A stretch of DNA of 64,000 nucleotides, taken from contig OZ017753.1 in assembly GCA_963969365.1 (NCBI GenBank), positions 682,001 through 746,000 of the forward strand. The letters run 5' to 3'. The notes below the pieces were generated by a model. The model worked only from the letters and a program-made list of their open reading frames with translations, had not been told where the DNA came from and did no database searches. The translations under genes and the position numbers were made by a program. This document shows positions 40,426-61,190 of this stretch, piece after piece; the stretch's first letter is position 1, and the number at the start of each line of letters is the position of its first letter. The DNA comes from Asterochloris sp. CNOR1 (lineage: Eukaryota; Chlorophyta; Trebouxiophyceae; Trebouxiales; Trebouxiaceae).

Positions 40426-40648
40426 TGTAGCACACAGCTACCTACTAGAACCTACCAGACCTGCCAGACACTTCTACTGCACCTGCCAGAAGTTTCCATG
40501 AGCTTACCTTTATGAAAGATGATAATAATATGGTATATAAAGCCCTCTGTTCACTTTGCTAGAGACGTCTCATACTTCACACACCTCACATCCTTGTACC
40601 TGGCTTCAAGGCCCAAGTCCACAGCAACCATGTAACTCCTGGGCCACA
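40426..40648 (-). repeat. Solo LTR (Gypsy-related family), reverse copy
   Basis: Runs from TGTAGCACACAGCTACC to CTGGGCCACA, about 223 bp, with TG...CA ends. Flanking 5-mers are GAGGA and GAGAA, a probable target duplication with one difference. It is a diverged member of the same family as the copies at 45,740, 47,564, 50,623 and 50,887. It is a fossil and lacks internal sequence. The strand given is relative to the 45,740 copy. Confidence 0.75.
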
Positions 40649-41379
40649 GAGAAGACGGCCAGAAGCAGGGTTTAGGACAATGGAGCATGCCAGATGGAAG
40701 GCTGTACCACTCCCCATCCTCTCTCGGGCGGTGCTTGTGAGGACACGTTTTCGTTATCGTGTCAGCATGAACACCATTCCAGCCGTTCAATGCTCTTATT
40801 TAATTTAGTTGTCCATGCTGCCCGCGACAGCCACACGCTGGGCTCAAGACAATGCAGCATGCCCCCCTCAACACTCCTGCTGTTCCTCATCCAACGGAAG
40901 CGTTTTTTTGTGCCAGACTCGCAGCTGAGTCACAGGGGGGCGTCACCCAGGGCAGGTGAGTTTGTATCACCCGAAGGAGGTGACGATTGTTGTCTCAAAC
41001 GCAGCCAGGTGCCAAGTCCTTGCAGCCTATCTCCTGGGATGGATCAGGTGCTGTCTACAGCTTGCCCCTCGAAGATAATGCCCGCAAGGCCTCGGTCAAG
41101 CCTCTGGTATTGCTGGCAGAAGACTGGATGAAAATTGACGCACAGCTGCTGAAGCACCGCCTGGCCTCGGCGGTGTTCGAACCAAGGGCATTCCAGCTTG
41201 TGCTCCCCGCTGGGACACCTTAACTGTTACACCTGCAGCCTGAAGCCTGTCTTGTGATGTCTCCTTAGAAGGTTGCTCAATCAAGCTGACTGCCTGCAAC
41301 ACAAATTAGCTCCCATGGTAGCTTGACTCCAGCTAGACCGATAGTTGACCTTATTTCGTGAGCCTGCGTGGCTTGGAGC
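40649..41379. other. Transposon-derived spacer related to 48,040-48,340
   Basis: From about 40,990 the sequence resembles the segment at 48,040-48,340 (shared blocks include CTGTCTACAGCTTGCCCCT, GGCCTCGGTCAAG, CTTGTTTCGTGAGCCTGC-like runs). It is the upstream part of KDZ-type copy A. The first 300 bp show nothing recognisable. Confidence 0.5.
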
Positions 41380-41719
41380 TGTGACGGACATGATGTTGGC
41401 TGCCAGCCTTGAGGAGCCTGCTGCAGAGCGGTCGCTCTCTCCAGTACAGCTGAGCCCAGGCTAAAGGCAGCTGGTACGCCCCGTCCTGGCTACCAGAAAG
41501 CGGCCCTTGCCTGTGGGTAACCCCTTCGGCCGAAATGGCCTGCTGCCAGGCGCTTGCTGATCTGAATGACCCACCAAGCGGCTTCGACTCTTATAAGTAC
41601 CACCAGCTACTTTCAGGACACCCGTCAGGAGCGCAACGAGACAGCGGTTGCCAATCGGCGTCGTACTTACCCACAGCGACAGAATCAGCGGCTGGCGTCA
41701 GCACAGCAGCATGATCAAG
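41380..41719 (+). pseudogene. KDZ-type transposase remnant, copy A (5' part)
   Basis: Aligns by eye with 48,537-48,860, the N-terminal coding part of KDZ copy B. Shared peptides include AASLEEPAAE(R/Q), SLSPVQLSP and a QRLASAQ(Q/R)HD end. Copy A has in-frame stops and small length differences (for example after CTGAGCCCAGG), so it is dead. It breaks off exactly at the LTR of the copia element, which inserted into it. Sequence on the other side of the copia (46,497-47,515) may be its continuation. Confidence 0.6.
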
Positions 41720-41927
41720 TGTGTGTGTGGCCCAAGGCCCTTATATACACTGGTCAACGGTCAAGCATATTAGTTCATGGAAGCTGCTATGAGTTGATGT
41801 GAAGGCTCCAGAAGAGTCTGTTCCAGAAGCTTCTTGAACATGCAGGGTAGATTGCAGAATGTTCTTGACCAGTGTGGGACACTCTCACAGGCTGGACTGG
41901 CATGTCTGGTCTGACTGCCTCTCAACA
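41720..41927 (-). repeat. Copia LTR (downstream end)
   Basis: Pairs with 46,289-46,496. TG...CA ends (TGTGTGTG... to ...CTCTCAACA on the + strand). Contains a four-unit heat-shock element at 41,821-41,838 and a TATATA run near 41,742. Confidence 0.85.
41821..41838. promoter_or_regulatory. Perfect heat-shock element in the copia LTR
   Basis: TTCCAGAAGCTTCTTGAA gives four alternating units TTC-nn-GAA-nn-TTC-nn-GAA, the textbook binding site for heat-shock factor trimers. The same string occurs in the partner LTR at 46,390-46,407. Confidence 0.7.
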
Positions 41928-44900
41928 CTCCCACGCAGGCTGTGATGGGTGTCCAGGACTTTGAGGCCGTGTTGTCAGTTGAGTAGCCCCAAGCCGTCGC
42001 GACAGAAGGTGTGCTTGCCTTCAGCCACAGGCTTGGTCAGGAAGTCTGCCAGCATGTGCTCTGTTTTCACATACTCGAAGGCCACCTCCTTGCGTGCCAC
42101 TCTCTCCCTTGCAAAGTGGTAGATGACGTCGATGTGCTTGGACCGCAAGGATGTGATGGGGTTCTTGAGGAGCTTGACAGCCCCTTGGTTGTCTGCACGG
42201 ATGGTGATGGTGCTGACTGTCCTCTGTAGGTCATCGATGAGCTTGCGAAGCCAGAGGGCCTCCTTGGTAGCAGCTGCTGCTGCCATGTACTCTGCCTCTG
42301 TTGTGGATGCCGCAACTGTCTGCTGGCGCCGGCTTGACCAGGTGATGGCACCTCCGTTGAGTATGAAGACGTAGCCGGTGGTTGAGCGTCTGGTGTCAAG
42401 GTCTCCAGCGTAGTCTGAGTCACAGTAGCCCAGCAGCTGGTTGCTGCTGTTGCCTCTGCCAAAGCAGATGCCTTGGCCTCTGATACCAGCGAGGTAGCGC
42501 AGAACTCCAAGGGCCGCTGCCCAGTGGATGGTGGTTGGTGTTGTCATGTATCTGGCCAGGGCTCCCACGGCTTGCGCAATGTCTGGCCGTGTGCACACTG
42601 CCAGGTACATGAGGCTCCCAATGAGCTGGCTGAAGCCATACTTGTGCTTGTCCAAAGGCTCCCCCTCGTCCTTGGTCAGCTTGGTGGAGGCTGTGAGCGG
42701 CACTGACTTGGGCTTGGCATCTTGCATCTGGTACTTGGAGAGCAGCTGGGTTGTCATGCGCTGCTGGCTGAGCTTGAGGCTCTGCCTGGTGCGGTCGCGC
42801 TCGATCAGCATGCCCAAGTAGATCTGTGCCTCCCCCAGGTCCCTTGCCTCGAAGGCTGTCATGGCCTTGCTCTTGGCCCACTCCACAGAGGAGAGGCTCT
42901 GAGCCGCAATGAGGATGTCGTCGACGTAGACCAGCAGGTGGATGGTGTCTTCTTTGCTGTGGTAGCTGAAGAGGCCAGGGTCAGCTTCTGACTCTGTGAA
43001 GCCAATGGCCTCCAGCTCCTGCTTCAGGCGAGCATGCCACTGCCGCGGAGCTTGGCGCAATCCGTACAGAGCGCGGTGCAGGTGGCAGGCCAAGTTGCCG
43101 GGTCCCTCCTTGTAGCCAGGTGGCTGTTGCAGGTAGATGTCCCCCCTCAATGGTGCCGTTGAGGAAGGCTGTTTTGATGTCCAGCTGGTGCAGCTCCAGG
43201 TCCTCAGCCGCCACGATTGCCAGCAGTGTCCTCAGCGTGGCGTACTTGCTGACTGGTGCAAAGACCTCATCGAAGTCGATGCCTTCACGTTGTCTGTAGC
43301 CCTTGGCCACCAGCCGTGCCTTGTAGCGCTCTGCTCCGCCGTTGGCTGCTGTCTTCACTTTGAAGACCCACTTGACTGGGATGGCTTGAAGACCAGGTGG
43401 TAGCTCCTCCAGCGTCCAGGTTTTGTTTGCCATGAGAGAGGCAATCTCCTCGTCCATGGCTTGCTGCCACTGCTCCGCTTCCTCTGAGGCCATAGCTTCT
43501 TCGTAGGTGTCTGGCTCCATGAGGGTGGCTGACGTGGCGTTTGCTGTGTCACACTTGGAGCTGAAGCTGGCGTTGGTTCCAGCAGCAGTTGGCTGCTTCC
43601 ACCATTCAGATGGCGGGCGTGGGGCTCTGGTGGATCTGCGCAGAGTGGTCTGAGGCTGAGGTGCTGGTGGTTGGTCTGAGTCTGGCGGCTCCTCTGGCAA
43701 CTCCTGAAGCACCAGCACTTGCTCCTCTTGAGCTTGCTCCTCAGGGTCTGACTCAGAGTCGTCAGCCTCCCACTGTGGAGCATGTTTGCTACCGATGCTG
43801 GTGACTCCAGTGCCCTCATCAAGAAATGACACTTCGGCTGATGATGACTGTCTGGTTGTCCAGCAGTATGCGGTAGCCCTTGGTGCTGTCTGGGTAGCCC
43901 ACCATGACTCCACGGATGCTGCGGTTGTCCAGCTTCTGCCTCTTCTCCTCAGGTAGGTGGCTGTAGGCTGTTGCTCTAAAGGTTCGCATGTGGGAGACAT
44001 CCGGCTTCTGACCGAAGAACAGCTCCCACGGGGTCCTTAGCTTCTTAGCAGCAGGTGAGCGACACCTGATGTAGTTGGCTGTGTTGACAGCTTCTGCCCA
44101 GAGCTCCTTGGGCAGCCCAGCGTCACTGAGCATGGCCCTGGCCCGCTCCATGAGTGTGCGGTTGAGCCTTTCGGCCGCGCCATTCTGCTCTGGGGTGTAG
44201 GGAACGGTTGTCTGGTGGAGTATGCCTCTGGACTTGAGGTACTGGGTGAGCTCTCTGTTGACATACTCGCGCCCGTTGTCTGTGCGGATGGCTTGCACTC
44301 TCCTTTTGGTCTGGTTCTCCAGCAGGTGAAGGACTTTGCGGACCGTTGTGGTTGTTTCTGACTTGTAGGTGATGATCCGGACGATGGACAGCTTGGAGAA
44401 GTCGTCCAGGAAGGTGGCCACATACTTGCTTCCACCGAGTGAAGGTACGGGCATGGGCCCGCATAGGTCCATATGTAGAAGCTCGAGAGGTTCTGTGCTC
44501 TCCCGCTTGGAAGCTGGGAATGGCGCCTTGTTGTGCTTGGCCAGGATGCAAGGCTCGCAGACTACTGCCCTTGCAGCCTTGAATCCCTCTCAGGGACTTT
44601 GATGCCATCCACCATGTCCTCACGGACCAGCGCCTCCAGGTTGTGGTAGCCAAGGTGCCCAAAGCGGCGATGCCAGAGCTCTGCTGTCTCTGGCTTTGGG
44701 GTGGCCGCCAGTGCTGTGGCTGCATCCCTCAGGCTTGGGATGTAGTAGAGGCCATTGGGCCCGCGCTTGGCGTCACCAATGTCTCTGCCATGCTGCCTGA
44801 TGGAGCAGCATGTGGGCCCAAAGTTGGATTTGGTGCCCCGCCCAGTTGCCGTGGTGATGGAGAACAGGTTGGCGGCTGCTGTTGGGATGTAGAGAACACC

Positions 44901-45739
44901 CTTCAACACAATGGTTGCTCTGTCTGTCTCCAAGAGAGCATCGCCCATGGCCTGGGCCTCGCCAATGGTGCCATTGGCAAAGCAGACCGTGATGTTGCGG
45001 TCCGCTGCCCTGCCGTTGCTGAGCAGGTCCTTGTTGCCTGTGATGTGGTTGGATGCTCCTGAGTCCAGCACCCAGTCCATGTCTCAGTTGACGACTGTGG
45101 CCCCCATGGCAGCCACATTGCGGTGGCCACTGTCTCCCATGCTGGGATTGGGGCCACTGGGGCTCCAGCGTGCCCAGCTGTGCCCTCTCTGCTCTTCTTC
45201 TTCTGACACTCTGCCTTGAGGTGTCCCCGCTTGCCACAATACCAGCACTCCTTGGCATTGCCTGAGCTGCCAGTGCCAGCTCTGTGCTGTGGCTTGCTGG
45301 CCTTGTTGGTGAAGAGGGCACGGTTGTCAGCCCTCTCTCCGCCGCCAAGTCGCTGCTCTGCTTGCTGCAGCTTGGCCAGCACGGCCCCCAGCTCCAGCTT
45401 GCTATCTGTGATCTCCAGGACAGCCACAACGGTGTCAAACTCTTTGGGCAGCCCAGCCAGGATGCACATGATGAGCTCCTGATCCTCCACAGTGTGGCCA
45501 GCGGCCAGCAGCTGATCCCGCATGTCTGTGGCCTGGTTCACGTACTGGACCAGAGGCTCATGGGGCTCCTTGCGTAGGCTGTTGAGCTCTCTCTTGAGGT
45601 GTAGCTGCCTTGCTGTGCTCTTGGCTTGGTAGACTGCCTCCAGCTTCTGCCAAGCCTCTGCTGCTGTCGTTGCCTTGGACAGCATATGTAGGTGGTGGTC
45701 CTTGACGTGGAGAGACAGCTGAGCCAGTGCCTTCTCGTC

Positions 45740-45985
45740 TGTGGCCCAGGGGTTACATGGTTGCTATGGACTTGGGCCCTGAGGCCAGGTACAAGGATGT
45801 GAGGTGTGTGAAGTATGAGAGGTCTGCTAGCAAGGTGAACAGAGTGCTATATATACCATATTATTATCAATATTTATCAAGGTAAGCTCATGGAAGGTTC
45901 TGGCAGGTGCAGTGGAAACTTCTAGCAGGTGCAGTAGAAGTCTCTGGCAGGTCTGGTAGGTTCTATCAGGTAGCTGTGTGCTACA
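45740..45985 (+). repeat. Solo LTR nested in the copia gag
   Basis: 246 bp from TGTGGCCCAGG to GTGTGCTACA, flanked by a perfect 5-bp target duplication TCGTC (45,735-45,739 and 45,986-45,990). It therefore inserted into the copia element by an LTR-type integrase and later lost its interior, or moved as a short element. It is related to the LTR of the Gypsy element at 51,260. Confidence 0.85.
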
Positions 45986-46288
45986 TCGTCTGCTCCAGCC
46001 TTGGGCGCACCCTGCCCAGACACAGCGCCCCAGAGGTCCTTGATGGTGAGGAAGGCCTTCATCTTGACGCTCCATACAGCATAGTTGTCTGTGTCCAGCT
46101 TGTCAATGTCCACATTGGTCATCTTGGTCCCAGGTGTAGTCTTGCCTTCCTTTGCTGTGACCACTCCTCTGGTGGTTGGGTCCTTAAGGCAGAGACGGAT
46201 TCTGTGGCTAGCAGCCGGCGAGGTCTGGGCCCATGACCTGTTGAAGGATTGGCGGTGGCTGGCTAGCGAATGTGTCACAGAAGTGAAG

Positions 46289-46496
46289 TGTGTGTGCGGC
46301 CCAAGGCCCTTATATACACTGGTCAACGGTCAAGCATAGTAGTTCATGGAAGCTGCTATGAGTTAAGGTGAAGGCTCCAGAAGAGTCTGTTCCAGAAGCT
46401 TCTTGAACATGCAGGGCAGATTGTAGAATGTTTCTGACCAGTGTGGGACACTCTCACAGACTGGACTGGCATGTCTGGTCTGACTGCCTCTCAACA
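46289..46496 (-). repeat. Copia LTR (upstream end)
   Basis: Pairs with 41,720-41,927, about 96 percent identical by eye. It keeps the same four-unit heat-shock element (46,390-46,407) and TATATA run. Confidence 0.85.
46390..46407. promoter_or_regulatory. Heat-shock element in the second copia LTR
   Basis: Identical 18-bp four-unit GAA/TTC array to that at 41,821-41,838, preserved although the two LTRs have diverged elsewhere. Confidence 0.7.
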
Positions 46497-47563
46497 CTTA
46501 GCCCAGTGCAGTCACAAGCCAACCATGCTTGTTGCCTGGCTCCATGATGCAGGTTCTGTCTTTGACGGGTTTCAACCTCAACAGGTGGGGCTGCGCTGCA
46601 CGTACTTGGGCCTGACCAGCTTTTCTGGCAGCCTTGATGACCGTCTGTCTGCATGTCATCGCTGTGGCACCGTCAATAAGATGCAGAGGCTGCAGCAAGA
46701 GGCCAGCAGACCAGCAGCCCGAAGAGGTCTGCTCAACATGTACTGACAGCAACAACCTAACAGGTTTGGCGGCATTGCTGGCATAAGGAGGCCAGCACCC
46801 CAGTTCAGTGAGGAGCTGCGCTATATGTTGCTGCACCTGGAGTTAGAATGGCCTGCGGACGCTTGCGTGTGGCAAGCAGCAGCTGCCTGGCAGCAGACAG
46901 CAGCACATTTGCTGCCACCAGCAGAGCAGCCTGCATCACATAGCGCCTTGAGCAGCTGCAGAAAGCGTTCGATAGGCTGCAGGGCAAAGTTGACTGTGAG
47001 CCTAAGGCCAGGCACTCAACAGTTTTGCTCTGCTTCAGCAGAGCTGTATGTATGACTGCTAGATCAATGCTCTGCAGCTGATGCGAAAGCTGACATGTGC
47101 TGCCGCAAGCAGCTGCAGGCAGGGCCTGGTTCTGACAAGGTGAGCAGGGTCATGCAAACAAAGGGCAAGCAAAAGAGCCAGGTTGCTTTACAACAGCTCT
47201 TAGCTGCTTTGAAAAGCAATTGGCAGCTGCAAGGCTGGCTGAAGCACAGCTGCACTGGCTAGCTAGGGGTGAGGCACTGAATGCAGATGCCATCTTGCAG
47301 AGCCACTACCCGAGGGATCCCAGGTCGCGTGGCAGCTTCTGCAAGCTTGTGAGCTTCCAGCAACACAGGTCAGCAGGCAAGCCAGCACCCCACAAGAATC
47401 AGCTGCACCTGCTCAAGCTGCTAGCAGCCAACGCACTGGTCCACTGTGACCGCCAGGAGCTTCAAGCAGCACTGAGCCACGATTGAAAGGTGTCTGGCTC
47501 GCGAATTTGCTATGGGAACCCCTGGGAGGACTGCAGTGGTGGAAAGCACTAAAAGACTGCCGC
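46497..47563 (+). pseudogene. Coding-like debris beyond the copia, possibly KDZ copy A continued
   Basis: Contains protein-like open stretches on the + strand: KPTMLVAWLHDAGSVFDGF (about 46,520-46,580), RCTYLGLTSFSG, RRPAPQFSEELRYMLLHLEL (about 46,790) and KNQLHLLKLLAANALVHCDR (about 47,395-47,455). I do not recognise a specific domain. By position it could be the remaining part of the KDZ-type copy split by the copia, but this is not shown by sequence similarity. Confidence 0.35.
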
Positions 47564-47809
47564 TGTGGCCCAGGGGTTACATGGTTGCTATGGACTTGGG
47601 CCCTGAGGCCAGGTACAAGGATGTGAGGTGTGTGAAGTATGAGAGGTCTGCTAGCAAGGTGAACAGAGTGCTATATATACCATATCTAATATCAATATTA
47701 TAAAGGGAAGCTCATGGAAGGTTCTGGCAGGTGCAGTGGAAACTTCTGGCAGGTGCAGTAGAAGTGTCTGGCAGGTCTGGTAGGTTCTAGTTGGTAGCTG
47801 TGTGCTACA
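47564..47809 (+). repeat. Solo LTR with perfect target duplication
   Basis: 246 bp, TGTGGCCCAGG to GTGTGCTACA, flanked on both sides by GCCGC (47,559-47,563 and 47,810-47,814). Very close to the copy at 45,740. It contains three 22-bp-spaced GAA/TTC motifs (starts 47,717, 47,739, 47,761). Confidence 0.85.
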
Positions 47810-48351
47810 GCCGCAACAGCAGCTAAGCTACATGAAGACATCACTACCCCTCAGTGAGCAAACATCACGGGGGGTCGTGAGGATCGACTTTCTTGAGTGC
47901 AGCGATCTGCCAATCCCGTGGGTGGGCTGCCACCCAGGATGGTCTGGAAGCTATCCCCAGCTTGCCCCATGAAAGAATTGCCCGCAAGGCCTCGGTCAAG
48001 TCCTGAAAGTTGCTGGCAGAAGACTGGTCATAATTTCCAAACGTAGCCAGGTGCCCATTCCTTGCAGGCTTTGCCTCTTGAGATGGTTCAGTTGCTGTCT
48101 ACAGCTTGCCCCTAGAAGAAAATGCCCGCAAGTCCTCGGTCAAGCACCTGGTTTTGCTGGCAGAAGGAGACTGGATGTGTACTGGACATTGATGCACAGC
48201 TGCAGCCTGAAGCCTGTCTTGTGATTATCCAATGAAAGGCCGCAAGCTGTCTGCATGCAACACAAGGTTGCTCCAATGGTAGCTTTACTCAATCCCCGAA
48301 GTTTGACTTTGTTTCGTGAGCCTGCATGGCTTCCTGTGACAGCTGAGCATC
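47810..48351. other. Upstream region of KDZ copy B
   Basis: Non-coding as far as I can see. The part 48,040-48,340 matches the upstream part of copy A (40,990-41,330), and a shorter degenerate repeat of the same block (GCCCGCAAGGCCTCGGTCAAG-like) lies at 47,950-48,020. So the transposon's 5' region includes an internal duplication. Confidence 0.5.
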
Positions 48352-49401
48352 ATGCCAGGCAAAAGAAGGCGTAAGCCAGATGAGCAGACAGGGGAAACGG
48401 GCGGTTATTTTGCCTTCATCTGACCAGCTGAGCACTGCTTTGCTTGAATTGACCGCTAAGATGATAGCCTGTCCATGCAGCAGCAGTGGGGGAGTATGTT
48501 GATGTGGACATTAGCACCACTGCCAGGGACGTAATCCTGGCTGCCAGCCTTGAGGAGCCTGCTGCAGAGCAGCCGCTCTCTCCGGTACAGCTGAGCCCGG
48601 ACACATGGCAGCGGGCACGCACCATCCTGGCTATCAGAAGGCGGCCCTTGCCTGTAGGCAACCCCCATTCATGTGAGCGGCCCGCTGCCAGGCGCAGGTT
48701 TGACCTGGATGACCCACAAAGCGGTCACGATCCTTGGGTGTACCCACCAGAAAGTCAGCAGGACACCCAACAGGAGCGCAACGAGAAAGCAGATGCCAAC
48801 TGGCGCCGCACTCTGCCACAACGACAGAGCCAGCGGCTGGCATCAGCACAGCGGCATGATGCCATGAGGGAGGCTGCAACGCTGGCAGTGCTGGCATCTG
48901 TGCAAGCAGAAATAGACAGTGTCGTCCACACAGATGCCTGCTGTCACATCAGTCAACATCTCAGCCAGCAGCAAGAACAGCAAGGCAGGCGGCCGCATCA
49001 GGGAGGCAGCCAGGAGCAGCGGCAGCAGCAGCAGAACAGCGAAGGGCCTGCTCCTGCTGCTGCAACGGCAATGTGGAGTCAGAACAAGGCAGTGCGCTTT
49101 GTGGGCCTCGCCGCAGACGGCGAGGTGCAGCTGTGCAGCTGTAGCTGCATGTGCTGTGATGCCTGGAGCGTGGTGCCAGAGGCTGTGGCATGCGCACCGA
49201 CCACGCCCATGCAGCCGCAGACCATCTTTGCAGACCAGCTTCTCTGATGCTTCCACCACCTGACAGTTGGGGACTCAGCAGTGTCAGCAACAGCCTTCTG
49301 TGCTGCTCTCAGCAAGATGAGCGACAAACTAGAGCAAGACACCACGATCTGTCTGATGCTGCAAAAGCACCAGCAAGCAGATGGTCGGACCGCTTCCTGA
49401 A
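48352..49401 (+). pseudogene. KDZ-type (Kyakuja-Dileera-Zisupton) transposase, copy B, N-terminal part
   Basis: A likely start at 48,352 gives the basic MPGKRRRKPDEQTGE. After a probable intron, a long frame from about 48,480 includes QRLASAQRHDAMREAATLAV, then a Q-rich linker, then VRFVGLAADGEVQL-CSCSCMCC and VACAPTTPMQPQTIFADQLL. The CxC-type cysteine cluster followed by 'P-TP-QP-F--LL' is the signature of KDZ transposases, abundant in green algae. The same frame runs through one TGA at 49,245-49,247 and continues TVGDSAVSATAFCAALSKM, the next conserved KDZ block, to a stop near 49,401. So the copy carries a premature stop and lacks a recognised catalytic part. It is a plain DNA transposon remnant. 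Confidence 0.65.
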
Positions 49402-50622
49402 CTGCAGTGTCAGCTGAGAAGCAGAATCTTCTTCGTGCCCCAAGGCTGTGCCCCTTAACACATGACCCAGGCCCCAGAGATAACTTGTCAGGGGTGTAGT
49501 CGTAGACAGAACATGCTGCGCGCATGCTAGTTGCCCAACTTGGCCAGCTTCTCCTAGAACACAGGTCTGCTCGGCGTTTAAGTGAAGGCAGCTGACCACT
49601 GGGCCAATGCCTTCAGCAGGTTCGTGCGTCGCCCATGGACCGTTTCCCTTTTGCAGACTGCTGTGAGCCATTTCAAGCTTTCTGCCATACTGAAGCAGAT
49701 TTTCTTGACTGCCAGCCTCTGCTGTCCCGGCGCAAGTTGTTGTGTGCAGTGCAAAGCTGTGCGGCATTGCTGTGTTGGCTGTTTAGCGGGCTCCGATGGA
49801 GATGCTCGCTCGGTGGTGCTTTGCCCGCTCCAATGCTGCTGCCAATGTGGCCTCTTGCGGTAGCAGCAGAGGCTGTGAGGCCCATCCTTGCTGCCACAGT
49901 CATTTAGGCTGCCAGAGCAGCAGCCTAGCAGAGTCTGGCAGAGAGCCAAGAGCTCCCCTTATACCTTCCGCAGGCCCCGTCTGCTCGCCCTGTGGTGACA
50001 CACTGCTGCCCTGTATGGCTCCACCTTCAGAGTTGTGCTGTCTGCTGCTTCGAACGTTGCCAGTGCTTTTCGACACTGCAACGGGCGCGCTTTCAGAAGA
50101 GGCTGCAGGCTTTTGCTGTGACCAGAAAGGTGCACCTGTGTGGCAAGCTCAGGCAGCCACCCAAATGGTTCCCAACCCTGCAGAGGCTGCTGAGAGAGAG
50201 GCTATTCAGCATGAGGAAGTCCAGCTGCCAGTTAGTCCATTCATTGTCCGGCTCTTCAATGAAAGCCCTTTAGTCGTTGTGCCAGACTTCAGCACAGACA
50301 CTGCAGCTCCCTCCTCATCTCAAATGTTGGACAAAGGATCAAAGGCACTTTGAACCTGCACACAAGGCTGGACTGCTTGAGGGTATCGCGGCGCATGATT
50401 CGAACACACTCTCGATGTCATGCAGTGTTGCCTGGTCGGTTCTGGAGGAGCATGCCTTGCCCAAGGGTGCATGTGGTCGAGCTCAAGATGCAGCTGGACA
50501 AAAGGTGCAACAGCTACTACTGGTTGCCCAGCCTAATAGGTCAGGCCTGTTCTGCATCTGGCTGGCAGCAGCTAACCACATCCAAGATCCAGCGGGAAAC
50601 TCAGGTCCAGTCCCACACTCAT
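49402..50622. other. Unassigned stretch with coding-like frames
   Basis: Open stretches such as FPFADCCEPFQAFCHTEADF (about 49,640) and LPVSPFIVRLFNESPLVVVP (about 50,225-50,285) look protein-like but match nothing I can name. They may be later exons of KDZ copy B. The tandem duplication unit begins inside this stretch at 49,997. Confidence 0.35.
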
Positions 50623-50861
50623 TGTGGCCCAGGGGTGTCGTTGTTTGCCGTAGACTTGAGGCTGAGGCTTTGTACAAGGGCGTTATGGCTTCAAGGAGTG
50701 CAGGCAGTGTCATGTGGGTCGGTAAAGTGAACAAAGTGCCTCATACACTCTGCACCCCGTAGAGGTGTTGATGCGAAGCATCCAGTAAGTCTCAGAGTAT
50801 GTTGGTGGGTGCAGTGGAAGTCTCTGGCAGGTCTGATTGGTTCTCATAGCTGCGTGCTGCA
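50623..50861 (+). repeat. Solo LTR, diverged subfamily
   Basis: 239 bp from TGTGGCCCAGG to GCGTGCTGCA with a perfect target duplication CTCAT (50,618-50,622 and 50,862-50,866). The middle differs strongly from the 45,740 type, but both ends are shared. Confidence 0.8.
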
Positions 50862-50886
50862 CTCATGGTGAGCAACTTAGGAGGCA

Positions 50887-51133
50887 TGTAGCACACCGCT
50901 ACCTACTAGAACCTACCAGATCTGCCAGACACTTCTACTGCACCTGCCTGAAGTTTCCACTGCACCTGCTAGAACCTTCCATGAGCTTTACGTTACAATA
51001 TTATAATGATAACATGGAATATACAGCACTTTGTTCACTTCACCAGGAGACCTTCCTTACTTTACACACCTCACATCCTTGTACCTGGCCTGAGGGGTCA
51101 AGTCCACAGCAACCATGTAACTCCTGGGCCACA
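50887..51133 (-). repeat. Solo LTR, reverse copy
   Basis: 247 bp from TGTAGCACACCGCTACC to CTGGGCCACA, flanked by a perfect AGGCA duplication (50,882-50,886 and 51,134-51,138). It is inverted relative to the copy 25 bp to its left. Confidence 0.85.
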
Positions 51134-51259
51134 AGGCAGGTCATCATTTAGGCGGCCAGGACTGAATTGCCCATCTGGAGAAACTATCTAGTTGTGAAAG
51201 AGTAGGGTGCGCGCCCAGAACAGGGGTCGATTGTGTTTGGGTTTGACCGGGGCTCCCTG

Positions 51260-51465
51260 TGTGGCCTTGCTTACAACGTACGGTGGACGGTGGGCTCTGA
51301 GACGGTGTTCAAAGGTGTCAAGGAATGTTGGTGAAGTGCCAGAGTGCTATATATACCCTCATATTATTATAATATAAGGAAAGGAAAATCAAGGAAGGTT
51401 CTAGCAGGTGCAGTGGAAGCTTCTGATAGGGTCTGGTAGGGTCTAGAAGGCAGCAGTGTGCTGCA
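51260..51465 (-). repeat. Gypsy LTR (pol-side)
   Basis: 206 bp, TGTGGCC...GTGTGCTGCA on the plus strand, identical to 57,028-57,233. In the element's sense direction (minus) it has a GTATATATAGCAC TATA-like box. Two GAAnnTTC motifs lie at 51,394-51,401 and 51,416-51,423. Confidence 0.9.
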
Positions 51466-51477
51466 TCCTTCCCCCCT

Positions 51478-54243
51478 TTAGTATTGAAGTTCCTTGGGGA
51501 GGCGTCTAAAGTTGGTCAGCAGGCCTTGGTCCACGTCCTCCACAGGCATCCACAAATTGTCCTGGTTGCCTCGGTCCCGCCATTTGATCAAGAACTCCTC
51601 CACGGTTTTGTCACCAATTTTGCGGCGTCGGCGCTTGAGGATGGCTTCTGCTTGGAACTCAGAAGTTGGCTGGCCACTGCTGAGGTCTGGTGTAGGCAAG
51701 GGTGGCGTAGACTGAGTTGGCGTGTTTGTCTTGGTGGTAGATGAGGGAGGCAGTGGAGTTGCTGTGGGCAGCTCGCCCTTGTATGGCTTCAGGAGCGAAG
51801 CGTGGAAGACTGGGTGCATCCGCATGTCGGCAGGTAGCCCCAGGCGATAGGCTGTGCGGGAGATGCGCTCTGTGATGGGATAGGGTCCCAGCCACACGGC
51901 GTCCAGTTTGCCATGGCGCAGGTTGCGTCTGGATAGTAGAACTTGGTCACCCACTTGGAACTCCAAATCGGTGCGGCGTTTGTTGGCCTGATGGGCCTGC
52001 CTCTCCTGTGACTTCGCGAGGTGTGCCTGAGCTCGCTCTAGGGTGTCTCTCAGGTGTTGTGCCAGGGCTTGCGCTGTGGGCGCGTTGCGGTTAGGCGGGA
52101 CGTCCAAGTTGACAGGTAGCAGAGGGTGTCTCCCAGAGTTGAGGTAGAATGGCGTCTGTTTGGTGGAGGCTTGCTCTGAATTGGTGTAGGCAAACTCCAT
52201 GAGTGGTAGGAGCTTGTCCCAATTGTCACGGCGGCGGTTGACAAACGCCCTCAGCATCTCCTCCAAGGTGCGGTTGGCACGCTCCGTCTGGCCATCAGTC
52301 TGAGGGTGGAAGGCGGTGGACACCCTCAGGTTGGTGCCAAGGATGTTGAAGAGGGCTCGCCAGAAGTTGCTGGTTGTGCGGGGGTCTCTGTCTGAGATGA
52401 TGATGCGTGGTAGTCCATGGTAACGGAAGACGTTGTTGATGACAAGGTCGGCCAGGCCAGGACCAGTGACTGTCTTGCGCGTTGGGGAGCAGTGAATCAT
52501 CTTGGACATGCGGTCCACAATGACAAGGATGGTGTCATGGCCCTCGGAGGTGGTGGGGAGTCCTGTGATCAGGTCCATGGTGATTTGCTCCCAGTTGTGC
52601 TCTGGTGTTGGCAGAGGTTGAAGTAGGCCGGCGGGTGCGCGGTTGAGGGGCTTGTTGCGTTGGCAGGAGTCACAGGTCCTGACATAGTCAGCCACATCAT
52701 CGCGCTGGTGTGGCCACCAGAAGTCCTTGGAGACTCCTCGAAGCAGCTTGTCCATGCCCAGGTGTCCAGAGAAGGGGGTGTCGTGGTACTCGCGGAGAAT
52801 GTCTTGGCGAAGGTTAGCACCAGCTGGCACGTAGACTGCACCCTCCTTGCGCCAGACGCCGTCCAACTCCTCAAGCACTTGCTTTCCACTCTCCTCCAGG
52901 TAGGTGTCGCCTTCGTAGGCCGACTTGATGCGCTCCATAAGGTTGTGTTGGCAGGTGCCAGTGATGGCATGGAGGTCTGGGCGGCGGGAGAGGGGGTCTG
53001 CGAGGTTGTCACTGCCCGCCTTGTAGTGGATGTCCAGGTCAAACTGCTGGAGTGTCTCCAGCCAGCGAGCTTGTCGCCGGGACAGGTTGCGCTGAGTGGT
53101 GAGGTTTTTGAGGTTGAGGTGGTCTGAGTTGACGCGGAACTTGGATCCTTCCAGGTAGCAGCGCCATGTGCGAAGAGCATGGATCACCGCCAGTAGCTCC
53201 AGCTCATGTATGGGGTAGTTGCGCTCGGCGGAGTTGAGCTTGCGAGACTCGTAGGCGATGGGCTGAAGTCCATTGCCTTGGTCCTGAAGCAGCGTGGCCC
53301 CGATGGCAAACTGGGAGGCGTCTGTGTAGAGCTCGAAGGGGTAGGCGAAGTCAGGTGTGGCCAGGACTGGTGTGGTTGTCAGAGCATGCTTGAGCTCAGC
53401 AAAGGCCTTGGCCTCCACCTCGCTCCATCGCCAAGTTGCCTTGGCGCCGGTGATGTTGGTCAGTGGCGCTGCTATGTGGGAGAACCTGTTGACAAAGCGC
53501 CGGTAGAAGCCCGCGAGGCCCAGAAAGCACCGGAGTTGGTGGGCGTCTGAGGGGTCAGGCCAATCAAGAATGGCCTTCACCTTCCTTGCGTCCACCTTGA
53601 TGCCTGCCCCGCTGATGGTGTGGCCAAGGAAGTCCAGCTCAGCCATGCCGAACTGGCACTTGGAGGCCTTGGCGTAGAGGTGGTGCCGCTCCAAGGCACT
53701 GAGCACAGCCTCCACATGCTGCGCGTGCTCCTCAGGGGACTTGGAGTAGATGAGGATGTCGTCAAGGTAGACCACGACGAATTTGTCCAGGAAGGGCCTG
53801 AGCACTTGGTTCATGAGGGTCATGAACGTGCTTGGCGCGTTGGTGAGCCCAAAGGGCAGCACCAGGAACTCAAAGTGACCATAGCGTGAGCGGAAGGCCG
53901 TCTTGTGCGTGTCGCCCTCAGCGATGCGGACTTGCCAGTAGCCACTGGCCAGGTCCAGCTTGGAGAACACCTTGGCGCCATTGAGTTGGTCCAGGAGGTC
54001 ATCAATGCGTGGAATGGGGTAGCGGTTCTTCACAGTGATTTTGTTGAGCGCTCTGTAGTCGATGCACATCCGCAGGCCGCCGTCCTTCTTGTGCACGAAG
54101 AGGATGGGTGCTCCAAAGGGGGACTTGCTGGGCTTGATGAAGCCCTTCTCCAGCAAGTCGTCCAGCTGCTTGCGCAGCTCTCCAAGCTCCAGAGGGGACA
54201 TGCGGTAGATGCCCTGATATGGTTGGGCGCCGCCAGGTTCTGT
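51478..54243 (-). CDS. Gypsy pol: reverse transcriptase, RNase H, integrase, chromodomain
   Basis: A single open frame of over 900 residues. [52 protein letters not shown] and the catalytic [10 protein letters not shown]. RNase [19 protein letters not shown]. Integrase: zinc finger [11 protein letters not shown]...CDSCQRNK, core with MDLITGLP and [20 protein letters not shown]. Near the C-terminus [20 protein letters not shown] then [16 protein letters not shown] is a chromodomain, which in chromoviruses guides integration to marked chromatin. It ends directly before the polypurine tract. The frame extends upstream beyond about 54,243 into sequence shared with the gag block, where pol similarity stops. 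Confidence 0.9.
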
Positions 54244-54256
54244 TCGATCATTCCCC

Positions 54257-55757
54257 ATGGACCCAGCAGCCATGCAAGCCAAGATCGGGGAGCTCGAGGC
54301 TTTCCTGGCAACAGTCACCGGTGCCCTGCAGCAGCTCAGCACACAGCAGGCTGCCCACTCAGCACCCAAGCAACCCAAGCCACCTCAGCCAGAGAAGTAT
54401 GAGGGAGACCGCCGCAGTGGTGCAGCATCCAACTGGCTGCACCAGATGACACTCTACCTCACCATCCTGGGCATCCTGGACACCGCCCACGCCATCCCCC
54501 ACGCAGTGTCCTTCCTCATCGGAGCTGCCAGAACCTGGTGGCGTGCTCAGGAAGCTTCTGGAAGCCCACCAACCACCTGGGCAGCCTTCAAGGCCTCCTT
54601 CCTTGAGGCCTTCCAGACCATCGATGCTGAGCGCATGGCCAGGGACCGCATGGAGAACCTCAAGCAACGCACCTCTGTCACAGACCACGCCAACCAGTTC
54701 TCAGGTCTGCTCCTGGAAGTTCCAGAGATGCACCCTGCGGACGCCGTCTACCGCTTTGTGAGGGGGCTGAAGCCCCAGATCCGCCTCCACGTGGAGCTCC
54801 AGCGCCCAACCACTGTCAACGATGCCATCCGCTTGGCACAAGCTGCTGACTCAGCACTGTACTTCACGCGGCCCACCTACCCTGTCAACCGGCCGACACC
54901 TTCACCTACCTACATGGGGCCACAGCCCATGCAACTTGGCGCTCTGACCCGCCCACCCAAGCTCTCACCAGCAGAGCGTGAGCGCCTGTACAGAGAGGGC
55001 AGGTGCTTCCGCTGCCGCCAGCCTGGACATCTTGCTGAGGAGTGCACCTACTTCAACACCACGCGCCCCACATCATCCTTATCACATGAGCAACCAAAAA
55101 ACTAGCTGGCCAGCCTGGTCACACAGGCTTTGGGCACAGAGCTGCGCCGGCACACATCCAAAGCCACATCGGAGTCGCCACCATGACAACACCACCATGC
55201 CACCCAGACCTGCTCATCCTTCAAGGCACCTGCGCCGGAGACCCTGCCAACATCCTGGTGGACTCAGGTGCCTCCATGGACTTCATCAACCACCGCTACA
55301 TGGCCAAGCACAGACTACCCAAGACCAAGGAAGACCCCCATGGGCGTGTCACGCTTGTAGACGGCAGCGTGCGCCCATGCACCCAGATTAGCGACAACAC
55401 CGTCACCGTCAGTGGCTACCAGACCTCGTGCCACCTCCACGTCACAGACCTCGGCCCCCATGATCTCATCCTGGGACAACCATGGCTCCAGAGCAACAAC
55501 CCTGACATCGACTGGGCACAGCGCACCTTGCGGCCAAGAATCCAAGGACCTGAACGCCCAACACAGATCATAGTGGCCCCCAGCAGTGAGGCACCAAGGA
55601 CAACTTCTTCTAAGGACATCCCAGTCATCTCCTCGTTGCAAGCCTCCAGAGCACTCAGACACGGCGCCAGCGGCTATCTTGCCCTGGTGCGCACCGCAGA
55701 GACAACCACCGCAGAAACAACCACCGCAGAGACAACCACAATGACCCCGGCACCAGG
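54257..55757 (+). CDS. Gypsy gag and protease block, on the strand opposite to pol
   Basis: The ATG at 54,257 starts [20 protein letters not shown] and runs to 55,105: a gag-type retrotransposon capsid segment ([39 protein letters not shown]) and a CCHC zinc knuckle ([14 protein letters not shown] near 55,007-55,050). From about 55,183 a second frame holds the aspartic protease ([37 protein letters not shown]). A short TTTAE repeat lies near 55,695-55,740, and element sequence ends at about 55,757. Separate gag and protease frames are common in the group. Confidence 0.85.
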
Positions 55758-56100
55758 TTCCCAAGGTCGCCTAGAGAATCTATCCATGTCTTGGACAGCG
55801 GCCTCAGCTCGTCATGAGGAAAAGCATATTTCATGTAGGCATCGTAGCCATGTGCAAACATCTCCTGGACTCTCTGCTGAGCCTCCACATGCCGCTCTGG
55901 CTCGTCCCAGTGGTTGCTGCCTTTCTCGAAGTTGGGCCATGCTAGGTGTTTCTGAGATGCATTTAAGGTTGCAGGGCGAGCTCCCCTGACAACCAAAACC
56001 CAAGCCAAACCAACGAGGGTGCGCAAGATATCCACGTTGCGTTTGGAATCAAGCCATGAGGTTCATGTGACTACCTGCATGCAATGCAAAGTCCACCAAC
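55758..56100 (-). pseudogene. Captured EDEM/GH47 sequence, N-terminal block
   Basis: On the minus strand a hydrophobic signal-like run (ILRTLVGLAWVLVV near 56,025) is followed by QQRVQEMFAHGYDAYMKYAF and PHDELRPLSKTWIDSLGD, the N-terminal landmark of EDEM-type alpha-mannosidases (MFxHAYDxYMxxAFPxDELRPL). No intron interrupts it, and I see no in-frame ATG ahead of it. It is joined on one side to the Gypsy protease block and on the other to the second EDEM block on the opposite strand. It is a fragment of a host gene copied into the element (inference from position inside the LTRs). Confidence 0.75.
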
Positions 56101-57027
56101 TATACAGGGGTGGCCCTGACCCTGATTGACGCCATGTCCACCCTGGCAGTCATGGGGCAGGCTGTCGACTTCGAGGCGGGCCTGTGGTGGCTCGTGGACA
56201 ATCTGCGGATTGGGCAGCATGTGAGGGTCAATGTCTTTGAGGTCAACATCCGCGTCCTAGGAGGCCTCCTGTCCAGCCACCTGCTGGCTCTGGACCCAGA
56301 GCTGAATTTGCTGCAGCGCCCGCGCAAGCAGCACCAGAAGGAGTACACGGGCCAGCTGCTGACCCATGCACGGCACCTGGCCGATCGCATGCTGCCTGCC
56401 TTTGTGGAGAGTGATACGGGGCTGCCCTATGCCTGGATCAACCTCCAGCATGGCCTCCTGGCCGATGACTCTACAGAGACAAACACTGCTGCAGCTGGTT
56501 CCTTCACCCTGGAGCTGGGGCTGCTGTCGAGGCTGACAGGGGACCCAAAATATGAGGATGCCGCTGTGACCTCCCTGGTGGCCCTGTGGCGCATGCGCAC
56601 CCACCTCAGCTTGTTCGGGACGTCCATCAACATCACCACCGCGCAGTGGGTGCACTCCAACGGCGGGACGGGCGCAGGGGCGGACTCCTTCTTTGAGTAC
56701 CTGCTCAAGGCCTACATCCTGTTTGGCGATGTGGGATACTGGCACATGTTTGCGGAGGCCTATGTGAGTGTCATGCAGCACTTCAGGGGTGGAGGCTGGT
56801 ACCACGATGCAGACATCTTTACCGGGCAGCCCACCCACATTCAGTTCCAGTCCCTGCAGTCCTTCTGGCCTGGCATGCAGGTGCTGGCAGGTGACGTCAA
56901 CCAGGCTGAGCTCACCTTTTGGAACTACTTTAGGGTGTGGCAGGGCTTCAGCCTCATGCCGGAGCGCTTCCTGTACGGGGCCAACCAGCTGCACCCGACA
57001 GAGCAGTACTTCCCTCCGAAACCAAGT
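56101..57027 (+). pseudogene. Captured EDEM/GH47 alpha-mannosidase sequence, main block
   Basis: An uninterrupted frame of about 305 residues: VALTLIDAMSTLAVMG, VFEVNIRVLGGLLSSHLLAL (GH47 active-site region), LPAFVESDTGLPYAWINL, AAGSFTLELGLLSRLTGDPK, GAGADSFFEYLLKAYILFGD, IQFQSLQSFWPGMQVLAGD and FRVWQGFSLMPERF. GH47 EDEM proteins trim mannose from misfolded glycoproteins in the ER for degradation. The frame runs to the LTR, and the C-terminal part of the GH47 domain is absent. Neighbouring host genes have an intron every 40-280 bp; none is present here over 0.9 kb, which points to a cDNA origin. Confidence 0.85.
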
Positions 57028-57233
57028 TGTGGCCTTGCTTACAACGTACGGTGGACGGTGGGCTCTGAGACGGTGTTCAAAGGTGTCAAGGAATGTTGGT
57101 GAAGTGCCAGAGTGCTATATATACCCTCATATTATTATAATATAAGGAAAGGAAAATCAAGGAAGGTTCTAGCAGGTGCAGTGGAAGCTTCTGATAGGGT
57201 CTGGTAGGGTCTAGAAGGCAGCAGTGTGCTGCA
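57028..57233 (-). repeat. Gypsy LTR (EDEM-side)
   Basis: Identical to 51,260-51,465. A candidate primer-binding site (TGGTTTCGGAGGG on the minus strand, 57,024-57,012) lies 3 bp inside it, but the same bases can also be read as the end of the EDEM-like frame, so this is uncertain. Confidence 0.9.
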
Positions 57234-58035
57234 CCCTGTACTTCAAGTTGGACCTCTAGGCCAGACAGGAGCAGTGTGATGCTGGCTGGTGGCTGATGAT
57301 CACTGCTCAGCTTGGACTTGCAGGCTGTCAAGGCGTAGCTTGCTTTTGGATGTCAGTAGCATAGAACAGCAACAACCCAGGCACAAGCTGGTGTTTAGAA
57401 AGGTGTACGCTATGGGTGCCAGCAAGTTCCTGGGCAGTGGCAACGCAGGTGAGTAAGCCCTGCTAGAGGCCACGATGGCATCCAGGATTGCACAAACATC
57501 GCCAAGGACCCGTAGGCCAGACTGCAGCCAGGAGGCAGCCGGTCACATGCTGCTGGCAACCGTTTGAGTGCGGACCTGTAATGTCGGACAGCGCCGGCGA
57601 CAGTCTGCAGGTATCGTCAGGGTATTTCAATGCTTATTGGGCTGCTGATCGCTGCAGCAGTGCCATGGCAGGTGGTGAGAGCACAGCAGGCATGCAGGCC
57701 GCCAGGGCAGCACAGACAGGCCAGCATGTCGTTCTGAGTGGCTCTGCGGAAACTGAGTAGCATTGTACGGGGTATGGTTGTCAGCAGCGTAAACGAGGTA
57801 TTACATCTGTGCTCGTAGACCACCTTTTCCCCATCCAGTAGGTGGTCGATATAGCGGCTGCAGGGGTCCCACCTCCCGCTGCAGGCCAGCTTTGTCTTTG
57901 GTCTCATCATGTATGGCTGCAGTTGACTACATGCAGTGCTGAGCATTCTCAAGCACCCTTTCGTCAGGTTCGGACTGTGGATTAGGAGCCCTCTGGACAA
58001 CAGAACGGTCAGGCATACTTGAGGAGGAGAGGCAC
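57234..58035. other. Spacer between the Gypsy element and the helicase gene
   Basis: Begins with the CCCTG target duplication. Short open frames exist on both strands, none with recognisable similarity. The part next to 58,036 is presumably the helicase 3' UTR. Confidence 0.45.
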
Positions 58036-60439
58036 TCAGTACGCATCTTCAGTGGATTTGAGTCCAGCATCTTCAAGGCAGTGGATGAACGCCTCCTCAT
58101 CGTCCCATTTTACTTCTGGGATTTCTTTGTCGAAGTGCTCGGCAATGGCATCCACCACCGCCTTCTCTGATGGCTCGCAGACCAGGTTGAAAGCACATCC
58201 CTTCTGGCCAAATCGGCCGCTGCGCCCGATCCTGTGAAGGTATGTCTCAAAGTTGGGCTGGGGGTTATGGCCAGAGCCATGCACCACAGGCGCATCGAAG
58301 TTCACCACCAGAGTCACCTGCAAGACGTGTGGCCATGACATGAGGCCTGCTTGCCTAGCAGCATCACTGTGAAAGGCCTCTTGAGAGCATTCACACACAC
58401 AGTGCAGTGTGACCGTCTAGCTGATTTAGGTGTACTTTCCAGCTCTACTCTTACAACAAGTGGCATCACACGTACCGAGCGCACATCAAAGCCCCGCGCA
58501 AGGAGGTCTGTGGCAATCAAGATCTTGGTCTTGCCAGTCCTGAACTCATCAACAATGTTGTCCCGGTCCCTCTTCTCCATGTCGCCTGTGATGTTGGTGA
58601 CCTTGTGCCCCTGGCGAGTGAGCTGCAGGCAGATGTCCAGTGGATTCATAATGTGCAGACAGAAAGAGCTTTGGGCACGTGATCATCTGACCTGCAGGTG
58701 TGGCATGATAGAGAGAACCTGCTGAGGCTGTATAAGGCTGACGGGATGGTGCGTCCAAGGAGGATTGCAGACCACAGCATGGCCAACAGCAGTGTATCTG
58801 TTGGTCACAGCTCATAAGAAGCTCATACCTGGTATCAGAACACCTGCTACGGCAAAGAACATGTGCACAGCGTGATGCTAAGGATGCGCAGTCAGGCAGC
58901 TCGCCGCGGTGCACCTCAGTGAACAGTGCGCGTGCAGTGTCCCGTGTTTTGACAAAGATGATGGTCTGCCCCAGCTTCTCAGAGTTGGGAAAGATCATCT
59001 TGGTGATGACATCAATCTTTTGCCGCGGCCTCTCCACCTCCACCCGGTACTGCTTGATGACGTCCAGGCTCAGCTCCTCCTTGGGCACGTACACCTGCAG
59101 GGCAAAAGGGCAAGTGGACTCGAGCACTGTAGATTGTCATTCTGGAGAACTCCTTGGCCATCATGTGGCACAGTATAAGCTGACTGTGCATGTGGCATAG
59201 CCTGGGCTTCTCAGGCGCAGCTGCTACTGGACACACATGGACCTGCAGTGCATTTGGCGTTGCAGCACTGGGAGGCTCAATGTTCATCACAACATGTCGA
59301 GCCTGCAGAGCTTGCAGCATGCTCAGCACGGCAGGAGCACCTGGAAGGCAATGAAGAACTGGGGTGAATGTGACTGGTATGTGTGTGGCGGGCACTGCTT
59401 CTCCTTGGTCGCCTACGGCAGAGGGCAAACGCAGCTGGTTGTGCAGGAATTGAGGCAGAGTAGGATTGGCCGCTGTGGGGTTGCCACAGCCTGAATACAT
59501 GCCTGGCCAGGGGGGGCCTAAAGGCCATTGATTGGCCCGCATCAGTGTGAGCCAGCAGAGAGCCATAAGCGATGCATCACGTCAATGATTTGCAAGGTGC
59601 ACAACATTTCTGTAGAGCAGCTGCCCCTCTGGTTCTGGGGATGTCTGGGCCTGGCAATGAAGAGGCACAACGCTGCTGGTGACAGACTTGCCTGCCTCAT
59701 TTGCAGCTTGCCTGGTGTGCCTCTGTCCCCACAACGTCTTTGGCAAAGTCGATGACCGCCTGGTTGAATGTGGCTGAGAACAGCAGGATCTGCAAGCCTG
59801 TGGTGGCACTCTGCACACGTTTGATCATGCGCAGCGACTCCTGGCCAAAGCCGTCTTTCTGCAAACAAGGCATAGGCTCCTTTGTAGCGCTGCTTTCAAC
59901 AGGCAACTTCGGCTGAAGCAAGGCACAGGCCCTCTTGCTGCAAAGCACTTGACTGCCAGCAATGGCAAGATGCATGGCAGGCTTCAAGCTGCCACCAGGT
60001 ATGTGCTTCTGTGAGGAGTTGGCCGGAAAATGCAGCAACTGAGTGCACAGGGCTGAACTGCACCAATTTCAGGCATGCCAGCAGTGAGGTCATGCAGCAA
60101 CTGATGCATGGAGCAAAGGTCACAGCAGGCAGACCTGCAGCAGAATGCTCTACTTTGCACACAGCAAGCAGGGCTGACAGCAGCAGGCAGGAACGCATGC
60201 CATCTTCACAAGCATCTTGCATGCCAGCAGGAGCTCATGCATTTCTTTGTGCAGAGGCTCCCCACCAGCCTTTGGCATGCCGGCTGCAGGGCGCAACGAA
60301 GGACTCACAGCAAGCATCTGGTCAGCCTCATCAAAAACTAGGATTTTCATGTGATTCAGTGGGATGAAGTCACGAGCCAGCCAGTTTTTGAGCTTTCCAT
60401 GTGTGGCAATGACGATCTGCGCCTGACACTTGTCACCCC
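58036..60439 (-). CDS. DBP5/DDX19-like DEAD-box RNA helicase, 5' part missing
   Basis: Exons on the minus strand: about 60,439-60,310 ([20 protein letters not shown], then [12 protein letters not shown], motif II DEAD), 59,859-59,735 ([23 protein letters not shown], motif III SAT), 59,097-58,905 ([35 protein letters not shown]), about 58,623-58,477 ([35 protein letters not shown]) and about 58,320-58,036 ([28 protein letters not shown], stop). The specific wording matches DBP5/DDX19/LOS4, which release mRNA-bound proteins at the cytoplasmic face of the nuclear pore. The exons for the Q motif and Walker A are not in the window: the gene is cut by the tandem-duplication junction at 60,564/60,565. 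Motif Ib reads THG where TPG is usual. Confidence 0.8.
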
Positions 60440-61190
60440 TGCAGGTGCAGCAGCAATCTGTCAGGCAGCCTCAAAACTTTGTGCTGCCAGCCACTGCTGC
60501 TGTTCACCCTGCTTCATCTCTTGCCTACAGATGCATCATGCACCCCAGATCCTCTGCACACTGAGACACACTGCTGCCCTGTATGGCTCCACCTTCAGAG
60601 TTGTGCTGTCTGCTGCTTCGAACGTTGCCAGTGCTTTTCGACACTGCAACGGGCGCGCTTTCAGAAGAGGCTGCAGGCTTTTGCTGTGACCAGAAAGGTG
60701 CACCTGTGTGGCAAGCTCAGGCAGCCACCCAAATGGTTCCCAACCCTGCAGAGGCTGCTGAGAGAGAGGCTATTCAGCATGAGGAAGTCCAGCTGCCAGT
60801 TAGTCCATTCATTGTCCGGCTCTTCAATGAAAGCCCTTTAGTCGTTGTGCCAGACTTCAGCACAGACACTGCAGCTCCCTCCTCATCTCAAATGTTGGAC
60901 AAAGGATCAAAGGCACTTTGAACCTGCACACAAGGCTGGACTGCTTGAGGGTATCGCGGCGCATGATTCGAACACACTCTCGATGTCATGCAGTGTTGCC
61001 TGGTCGGTTCTGGAGGAGCATGCCTTGCCCAAGGGTGCATGTGGTCGAGCTCAAGATGCAGCTGGACAAAAGGTGCAACAGCTACTACTGGTTGCCCAGC
61101 CTAATAGGTCAGGCCTGTTCTGCATCTGGCTGGCAGCAGCTAACCACATCCAAGATCCAGCGGGAAACTCAGGTCCAGTCCCACACTCAT

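Follow-up and report, generated by a model that had tools for sequence, protein, structure and literature searches.

A chromovirus insertion in the green alga Asterochloris carrying two opposed pieces of a spliced host EDEM sequence

This analysis concerns a composite Ty3/Gypsy chromovirus in a 64,000-nucleotide stretch of the genome of Asterochloris sp. CNOR1 (the window, C8:682001-746000; the genome searched comprises 56.4 Mb in 21 contigs). Between its two long terminal repeats (LTRs), the element holds two oppositely oriented pieces of a host EDEM sequence, a GH47 mannosidase of MNS5-like type that serves quality control in the endoplasmic reticulum, and every intron found in the matched part of the host gene is missing from them. 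We consider it likely that, during reverse transcription, an unfinished element DNA switched templates at both its ends to the spliced EDEM mRNA and that the product was integrated as a unit. Capture of host mRNA by LTR elements is known; new is the inverted, two-ended architecture, found here in a green alga. The original prediction, made from the sequence, was that an EDEM mRNA had been copied into a Gypsy chromovirus and the composite inserted in one event, and it is supported by the missing introns, by the unit of LTRs and target-site duplication, and by the recurrence of element-EDEM fusions in a second assembly.

Architecture of the composite and source of its EDEM sequence

The outer boundaries are those of an integrated LTR retrotransposon (Table 1). 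As predicted, the 206-bp LTRs are identical, with TG...CA ends, and CCCTG is duplicated immediately outside them; the EDEM sequence (55753-57014) indeed lies inside the pair, between 51465 and 57028. On the minus strand, Pfam matches above cut-off to RVT_1, RNase H, H2C2, SH3 and Chromo follow one another in Ty3/Gypsy chromovirus order, with the integrase core model rve at 28.0 bits, under its cut-off of 32.6, whereas the plus strand holds gag with a CCHC knuckle, an aspartic protease and GH47 in frame 56086-57027. A protein search with the reverse transcriptase (RT) gave at least 7,991 matches, which confirms a Gypsy pol and adds nothing further.

The inside of the element is rearranged, which the original prediction overlooked: the EDEM halves are opposed, gag-protease is inverted, a spacer is lost and the whole lies in a tandem duplication. 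In the canonical copies of the family the order is LTR, primer site, gag-protease, a 111-nt spacer, RT to chromodomain, polypurine tract and LTR, so that the Ty3/Gypsy collinearity, with gag-protease upstream of pol, is intact in the six copies fetched. It is broken in the composite, where the order in pol orientation is LTR, primer site, EDEM middle part in antisense, EDEM 5' half in sense, protease-gag in antisense, RT to chromodomain, polypurine tract and LTR. Gag-protease (54235-55755, plus) thus faces opposite to pol (54240 to 51478, minus), the spacer between protease and RT is gone, and the EDEM halves comprise 340 bp on the minus strand (56092 to 55753) and 926 bp on the plus strand.

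Table 1. Features of the composite and of its surroundings, in window coordinates
Feature	Position	Strand	Remarks
First unit of 10,568-bp head-to-tail duplication	49997..60564		second unit from 60565 past the window end, C8:742565-753132
Left target-site duplication, CCCTG	51255..51259
LTR (3' LTR in pol orientation)	51260..51465	-	identical to the other LTR
Polypurine tract AAAGGGGGGAAGGA adjoining the 3' LTR	51466..51479	-	shared by all 5 fetched canonical copies that have both LTRs
Pol remnant: RT, RNase H, integrase, chromodomain	51478..54240	-	with its LTR, 99.3-99.4% identical to fetched canonical copies
Joint J1, RT edge/gag start	54235..54240		6-nt overlap AGGTTC
Gag with CCHC knuckle, inverted relative to pol	54257..55105	+	Pfam profiles
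Aspartic protease remnant, inverted relative to pol	55183..55755	+	open reading frame continues into antisense EDEM up to 55989
Joint J2, protease/EDEM	55753..55755		3-nt overlap CCA; EDEM here has CCAGGTTCC in common with the RT edge at J1
EDEM 5' half	55753..56092	-	host exon segments of 172, 61, 89 and 18 bp; 3 introns absent (spliced alignment)
Joint J3, EDEM half/EDEM half	56089..56092		4-nt overlap AAGT; 11 nt of mRNA missing
EDEM middle part	56089..57014	+	host exon segments of 114, 217, 120, 186, 147 and 142 bp; 5 introns absent; GH47 profile 30-335 of 455
Joint J4, EDEM/primer-binding-site end	57013..57014		2-nt overlap
Primer-binding-site region adjoining the 5' LTR, ACTTGGTTTCGGAGG in pol sense	57013..57027	-	same in 6/6 fetched canonical copies
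LTR (5' LTR in pol orientation)	57028..57233	-
Right target-site duplication, CCCTG	57234..57238

The parent of the captured sequence is a single multi-exon EDEM/GH47 gene on the same contig, approximately 182 kb from the composite (matched part C8:547398-551028). Searches of the genome with 314 amino acids of EDEM (9/9 candidates scored) and with a 93-amino-acid amino-terminal part (6/6) returned this gene and the composite, the latter twice, and nothing else. A spliced alignment assigns the EDEM sequence of the composite to 10 exon segments of the parent; 8 of the 1,266 aligned bases (340 + 926, the 4 bases of the joint being counted twice) are mismatched. All 8 parent introns in the matched part (8/8) are absent from the copy, six of them GT-AG and two GC-AG, ends that the aligner favoured. 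The predicted stretch of about 1.25 kb of intronless EDEM sequence, continuous where the parent gene has introns, is therefore present, and the missing introns point to an mRNA as its source. A more distant or older EDEM source, which per-piece protein identities of 75-95% might have suggested, is ruled out by the spliced DNA identity (1,258/1,266); the lower values probably arose because exon ends had been read into introns. The best solved-structure match of the EDEM frame is the endoplasmic reticulum (ER) degradation-enhancing alpha-mannosidase-like protein 1 (E 8.8e-37), and the closest named relatives among the best 120 listed are trebouxiophyte alpha-mannosidases and plant MNS5 proteins. 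A plasmid look-up with the EDEM part gave no match, as expected.

At its 3' end the captured EDEM sequence stops within an exon, and neither a poly(A) tract nor a separate target duplication around EDEM was seen by eye. Inspection of the captured 5' part (window 56092-56035; host C8:551028-550957) likewise showed that a TGA, but no ATG, stands in frame ahead of a stretch resembling a signal peptide, and that a 3' splice site may lie 18 nt inside the start of this part. The captured mRNA may have been a variant transcript of the EDEM gene.

Since only part of the GH47 profile is present and the 5' half is reversed, an active mannosidase is unlikely to be made from the composite. Judged from its layout, the element is probably a defective passenger, which, with gag-protease reversed, should depend on other copies for Gag. 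The LTR promoter at 57028-57233, if active, would give minus-strand RNA antisense to 926 nt of the EDEM mRNA.

Switch points, a template-switching model and its alternatives

The four joints share short identities between the sequences that they unite, with overlaps of 6, 3, 4 and 2 nt at J1-J4; under a simple chance model, a sum of 15 has a probability of about 4.5e-5. On the mRNA, only 11 nt lie between the two EDEM halves, which derive from neighbouring parts of a single exon. Furthermore, the RT edge and the site of entry into EDEM have the nine bases CCAGGTTCC in common, an identity for which a random pair of positions would have a probability of about 7e-5; as the two sequences compared have 35 nine-mers in common, it is the position of this word that matters, not the word itself. 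J1 and J4 both sit at the edge of the primer-binding region, which is a natural stop of reverse transcription, and the gag-protease piece begins at this edge, with CCAGGTTC flanking both its sides. Absent introns, location inside the LTR pair and short similarity at the switch points, the marks of host-mRNA capture, are thus found together.

We infer the following course of events from this arrangement. A Ty3/Gypsy chromovirus would have been reverse-transcribed alongside the spliced EDEM mRNA, and minus-strand DNA that was copying pol would have moved to the EDEM mRNA at CCAGGTTCC and continued into the 5' part of that mRNA. Plus-strand strong-stop DNA, consisting of the LTR and the primer-binding site, would have been primed further 3' on the EDEM mRNA, probably on the same molecule, its copying having halted no more than 11 nt short of the first entry point. 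The two 3' ends could then have been joined via AAGT/ACTT, in place of the normal annealing at the primer site. A further switch from the primer-site edge would have added the gag-protease piece: minus-strand synthesis could stop at the bound tRNA, and the presence of CCAGGTTC on both sides looks as if synthesis had left and re-entered at one point. Finally, integrase would have inserted the product with its 5-bp duplication. In the twin priming of LINE-1, a long interspersed element (LINE), two complementary DNAs (cDNAs) of one RNA end up in opposite orientation with a small gap between them and are joined through short complementarity. The composite has a similar geometry, but within an LTR element. 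Differently from twin-primed LINE-1 inserts, it has LTRs and an integrase-type duplication of 5 bp rather than the signs of target-primed insertion, and no poly(A) was seen. A tentative extension of the template-switching model, for which we have less than even confidence, is that the host mRNA acted as a bridge that completed reverse transcription, both DNAs being primed on the same EDEM molecule and joined over four bases in what would amount to twin priming inside an LTR retrotransposon.

Several points weigh against template switching as the origin of the composite. In what order and direction the switches occurred is deduced and not observed. The inversion of gag-protease calls for a DNA or antisense template or for a detour, so that the model includes at least four abnormal steps. 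The 8 mismatches with the parent and the private changes of the composite cannot be separated into copying errors and later mutations. A search of the genome with one acceptor-stem pattern gave 0 matches to a tRNA that could prime at TGGTTTCGGAGG, and the primer-binding site is thus assigned by position and conservation only. Moreover, the fusions that recur in the second assembly cover J2 and J4 only.

The principal alternative is patching after integration, in which a normal chromovirus was broken at the primer-site edge and at the border of protease and RT, gag-protease was end-joined in inverted orientation, and pieces of EDEM cDNA served as filler. The LTRs and the target-site duplication would look the same, microhomology end-joining could likewise account for the short overlaps at the four joints, and the gag end and the primer-site end are nearly reciprocal at one break. 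However, a break precisely at the primer-site edge and the nine-base identity between RT and EDEM would both have to be coincidences, the distance of only 11 nt on the mRNA between the ends of the two EDEM pieces would call for further explanation, and the EDEM cDNA would still require some reverse transcriptase; we therefore regard this route as unlikely, although it is the strongest competitor. Far less probable is a LINE-type processed EDEM pseudogene with a 5' inversion formed by twin priming inside an ordinary chromovirus. Its layout, 5'-inverted with a small gap, resembles the 5'-inverted L1 class that is named in a part of PMC2912911, but the EDEM sequence lacks a poly(A) tract and a target duplication of its own (by eye), its 3' end falls within an exon, and the element is not simply interrupted, its spacer being lost and its gag-protease inverted. 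The frame of LTRs and target-site duplication together with the lack of poly(A) argues for LTR-type rather than LINE-type retroposition.

Least probable of all is an assembly error that fused EDEM cDNA with repeat copies. A near-perfect tandem duplication, with one mismatch in 10,569, is a place where assemblies can fail; yet spliced EDEM would presumably have no genomic source, and the EDEM-LTR and protease-EDEM fusions are present in two proteins of another assembly in ENA, which differ from the window at 3 and 2 residues, respectively. This is evidence against misassembly. This answers, for J2 and J4, the concern that the junctions might be artefacts. A different kind of claim, on use and compatible with any origin, is that the EDEM part has a selected function, either antisense control of EDEM or as a truncated mannosidase. 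In both assemblies the EDEM frame of 330 codons is uninterrupted, and transcription from the LTR would run antisense to the EDEM mRNA. That frame, however, holds only the above portion of the GH47 profile, and the middle part has 4 amino-acid replacements relative to the parent and 3 more in the second assembly, a pattern that looks neutral; we find such a function very doubtful.

Copy number, age and family context

The composite belongs to a block of 10,568 bp (49997-60564) that is duplicated head-to-tail with one difference (57623 T/C), which either arose very recently or is a duplicate introduced by the assembly. The match at C8:748654 was considered as a second, transposed EDEM insertion, a reading rejected because this match is part of the tandem duplication. 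Onward movement, implied in the original prediction by a mobile, 'transducing' element, is not borne out: apart from the parent gene, one insertion site and its tandem duplicate were found. The single-site result rests on the complete EDEM searches described above and on a whole-composite search in which 8 of 64 candidates were scored. A joined-flank search for an empty site in the assembly (4/4 candidates scored) recovered two occupied flank pairs only.

The two ENA proteins bear on age. P0121 (330 residues; a cluster of 3 member sequences) has the same EDEM-to-LTR tail, that is, the J4 fusion, and P0241 (268 residues; a cluster of 2 member sequences) runs from protease into antisense EDEM, the J2 fusion; each is listed with one contig of 2,774,594 bp, compared with 3,108,280 bp for C8 here. 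P0121 differs from the window at 3/330 residues and P0241 at 2/268. The window and P0121 share the four EDEM replacements that separate them from the parent, the three further ones being specific to P0121, and P0241 agrees with the canonical element at both sites where it differs from the window. Unless they are sequencing errors, such differences would make the composite older than the split of the two genomes. The description of the element as recently moved should accordingly be softened: the LTRs are identical, and zero differences in 206 bp are compatible with modest age.

Of the six canonical copies fetched, five have both LTRs and the one on C13 was fetched with one. The five measure 4,831 bp (three copies), 4,820 bp and 4,841 bp, their LTRs differ at 0 (two copies), 2, 2 and 5 positions, and matching 5-bp duplications flank three of them (3/5), with none matching in the copies on C10 and C4; the family copies thus appear to be fairly young. 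Compared with these five, the partial C13 copy being left out, the composite has private changes at 10/2,981 positions in pol and one LTR, and at 9/1,521 in gag-protease when compared with four copies (C10 and C1 left out for gaps). The primer-site sequence TGGTTTCGGAGG adjoining the LTR is conserved in the composite (57013-57027) and in all six canonical copies.

RT matches to the family occur on 17 of the 21 contigs (67/67 candidates scored), and all of them (69/69) fall at one place per contig, each spanning at most about 41 kb. Eleven of the 17 contigs have several matches and six have a single one; as single matches carry little information, the one-place pattern is tested by the 11 only. 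Gag matches lie at the same spots as RT on contigs C1-C4, C7-C16 and C18 (40 of 78 candidates scored), and on C8 the RT matches are the composite pair only. Weak LTR-like fragments at 40426-40556, 45840-45923, 47664-47775 and 50922-51070 of the window suggest an older cluster at this place on C8. The region 40426-57233 may contain the C8 centromere. A second gag-bearing family, approximately 82-85% similar, occupies the same clusters on C4, C7, C12, C14 and C15, and is possibly a non-autonomous partner comparable to RLG_Kyoko, which appears in a section of PMC12542154.

Relation to known captures and significance

Parts of PMC13317346, PMC5408686 and PMC3726574 establish that LTR elements capture host exons, and the last of these includes counts of host-gene capture in rice and sorghum. 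Maize Bs1 and other LTR elements with host exons resemble the composite in having host segments between the LTRs, acquired via transduction or template switching (as given in a part of PMC13317346, a paper in which the word 'alga' has 0 uses). Unlike Bs1-type captures, the composite holds its gene in two opposite halves, has an inverted gag-protease and resides in a green-algal host. LTR-mediated retroposition (Tan et al. 2016, via a section of PMC5408686) is similar in its capture by microsimilarity, often of a partial mRNA, and in its LTR ends inserted by integrase, but that section does not mention capture at both ends with inversion of the 5' half. Among the titles listed in the literature searched, mostly without subscription papers, none reported this architecture or a green-algal case of gene capture.

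A section of PMC12542154 describes the same one-place pattern for Asterochloris mediterranea (57 Mb, 18 chromosomes), where the clusters of the chromovirus RLG_Beelzebufo are taken as putative centromeres; no captured gene is mentioned there. The family studied here is alike in being a chromodomain Gypsy with one cluster per chromosome, a comparison of distribution and domain type, not of sequence. The event sits at a probable centromere of a green alga that is likely a lichen symbiont.

Overall, the composite provides a base-resolution record of mRNA uptake in which every switch point can be studied alongside the parent gene and the normal element within one genome, and to which the records of a second assembly add information on age. 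If the host-mRNA bridge is true, a broken replication cycle could still yield an LTR-flanked product that can be integrated. If the two-ended route is true, LTR elements would have an extra way to rescue broken replication and to invert the sequence that they capture.

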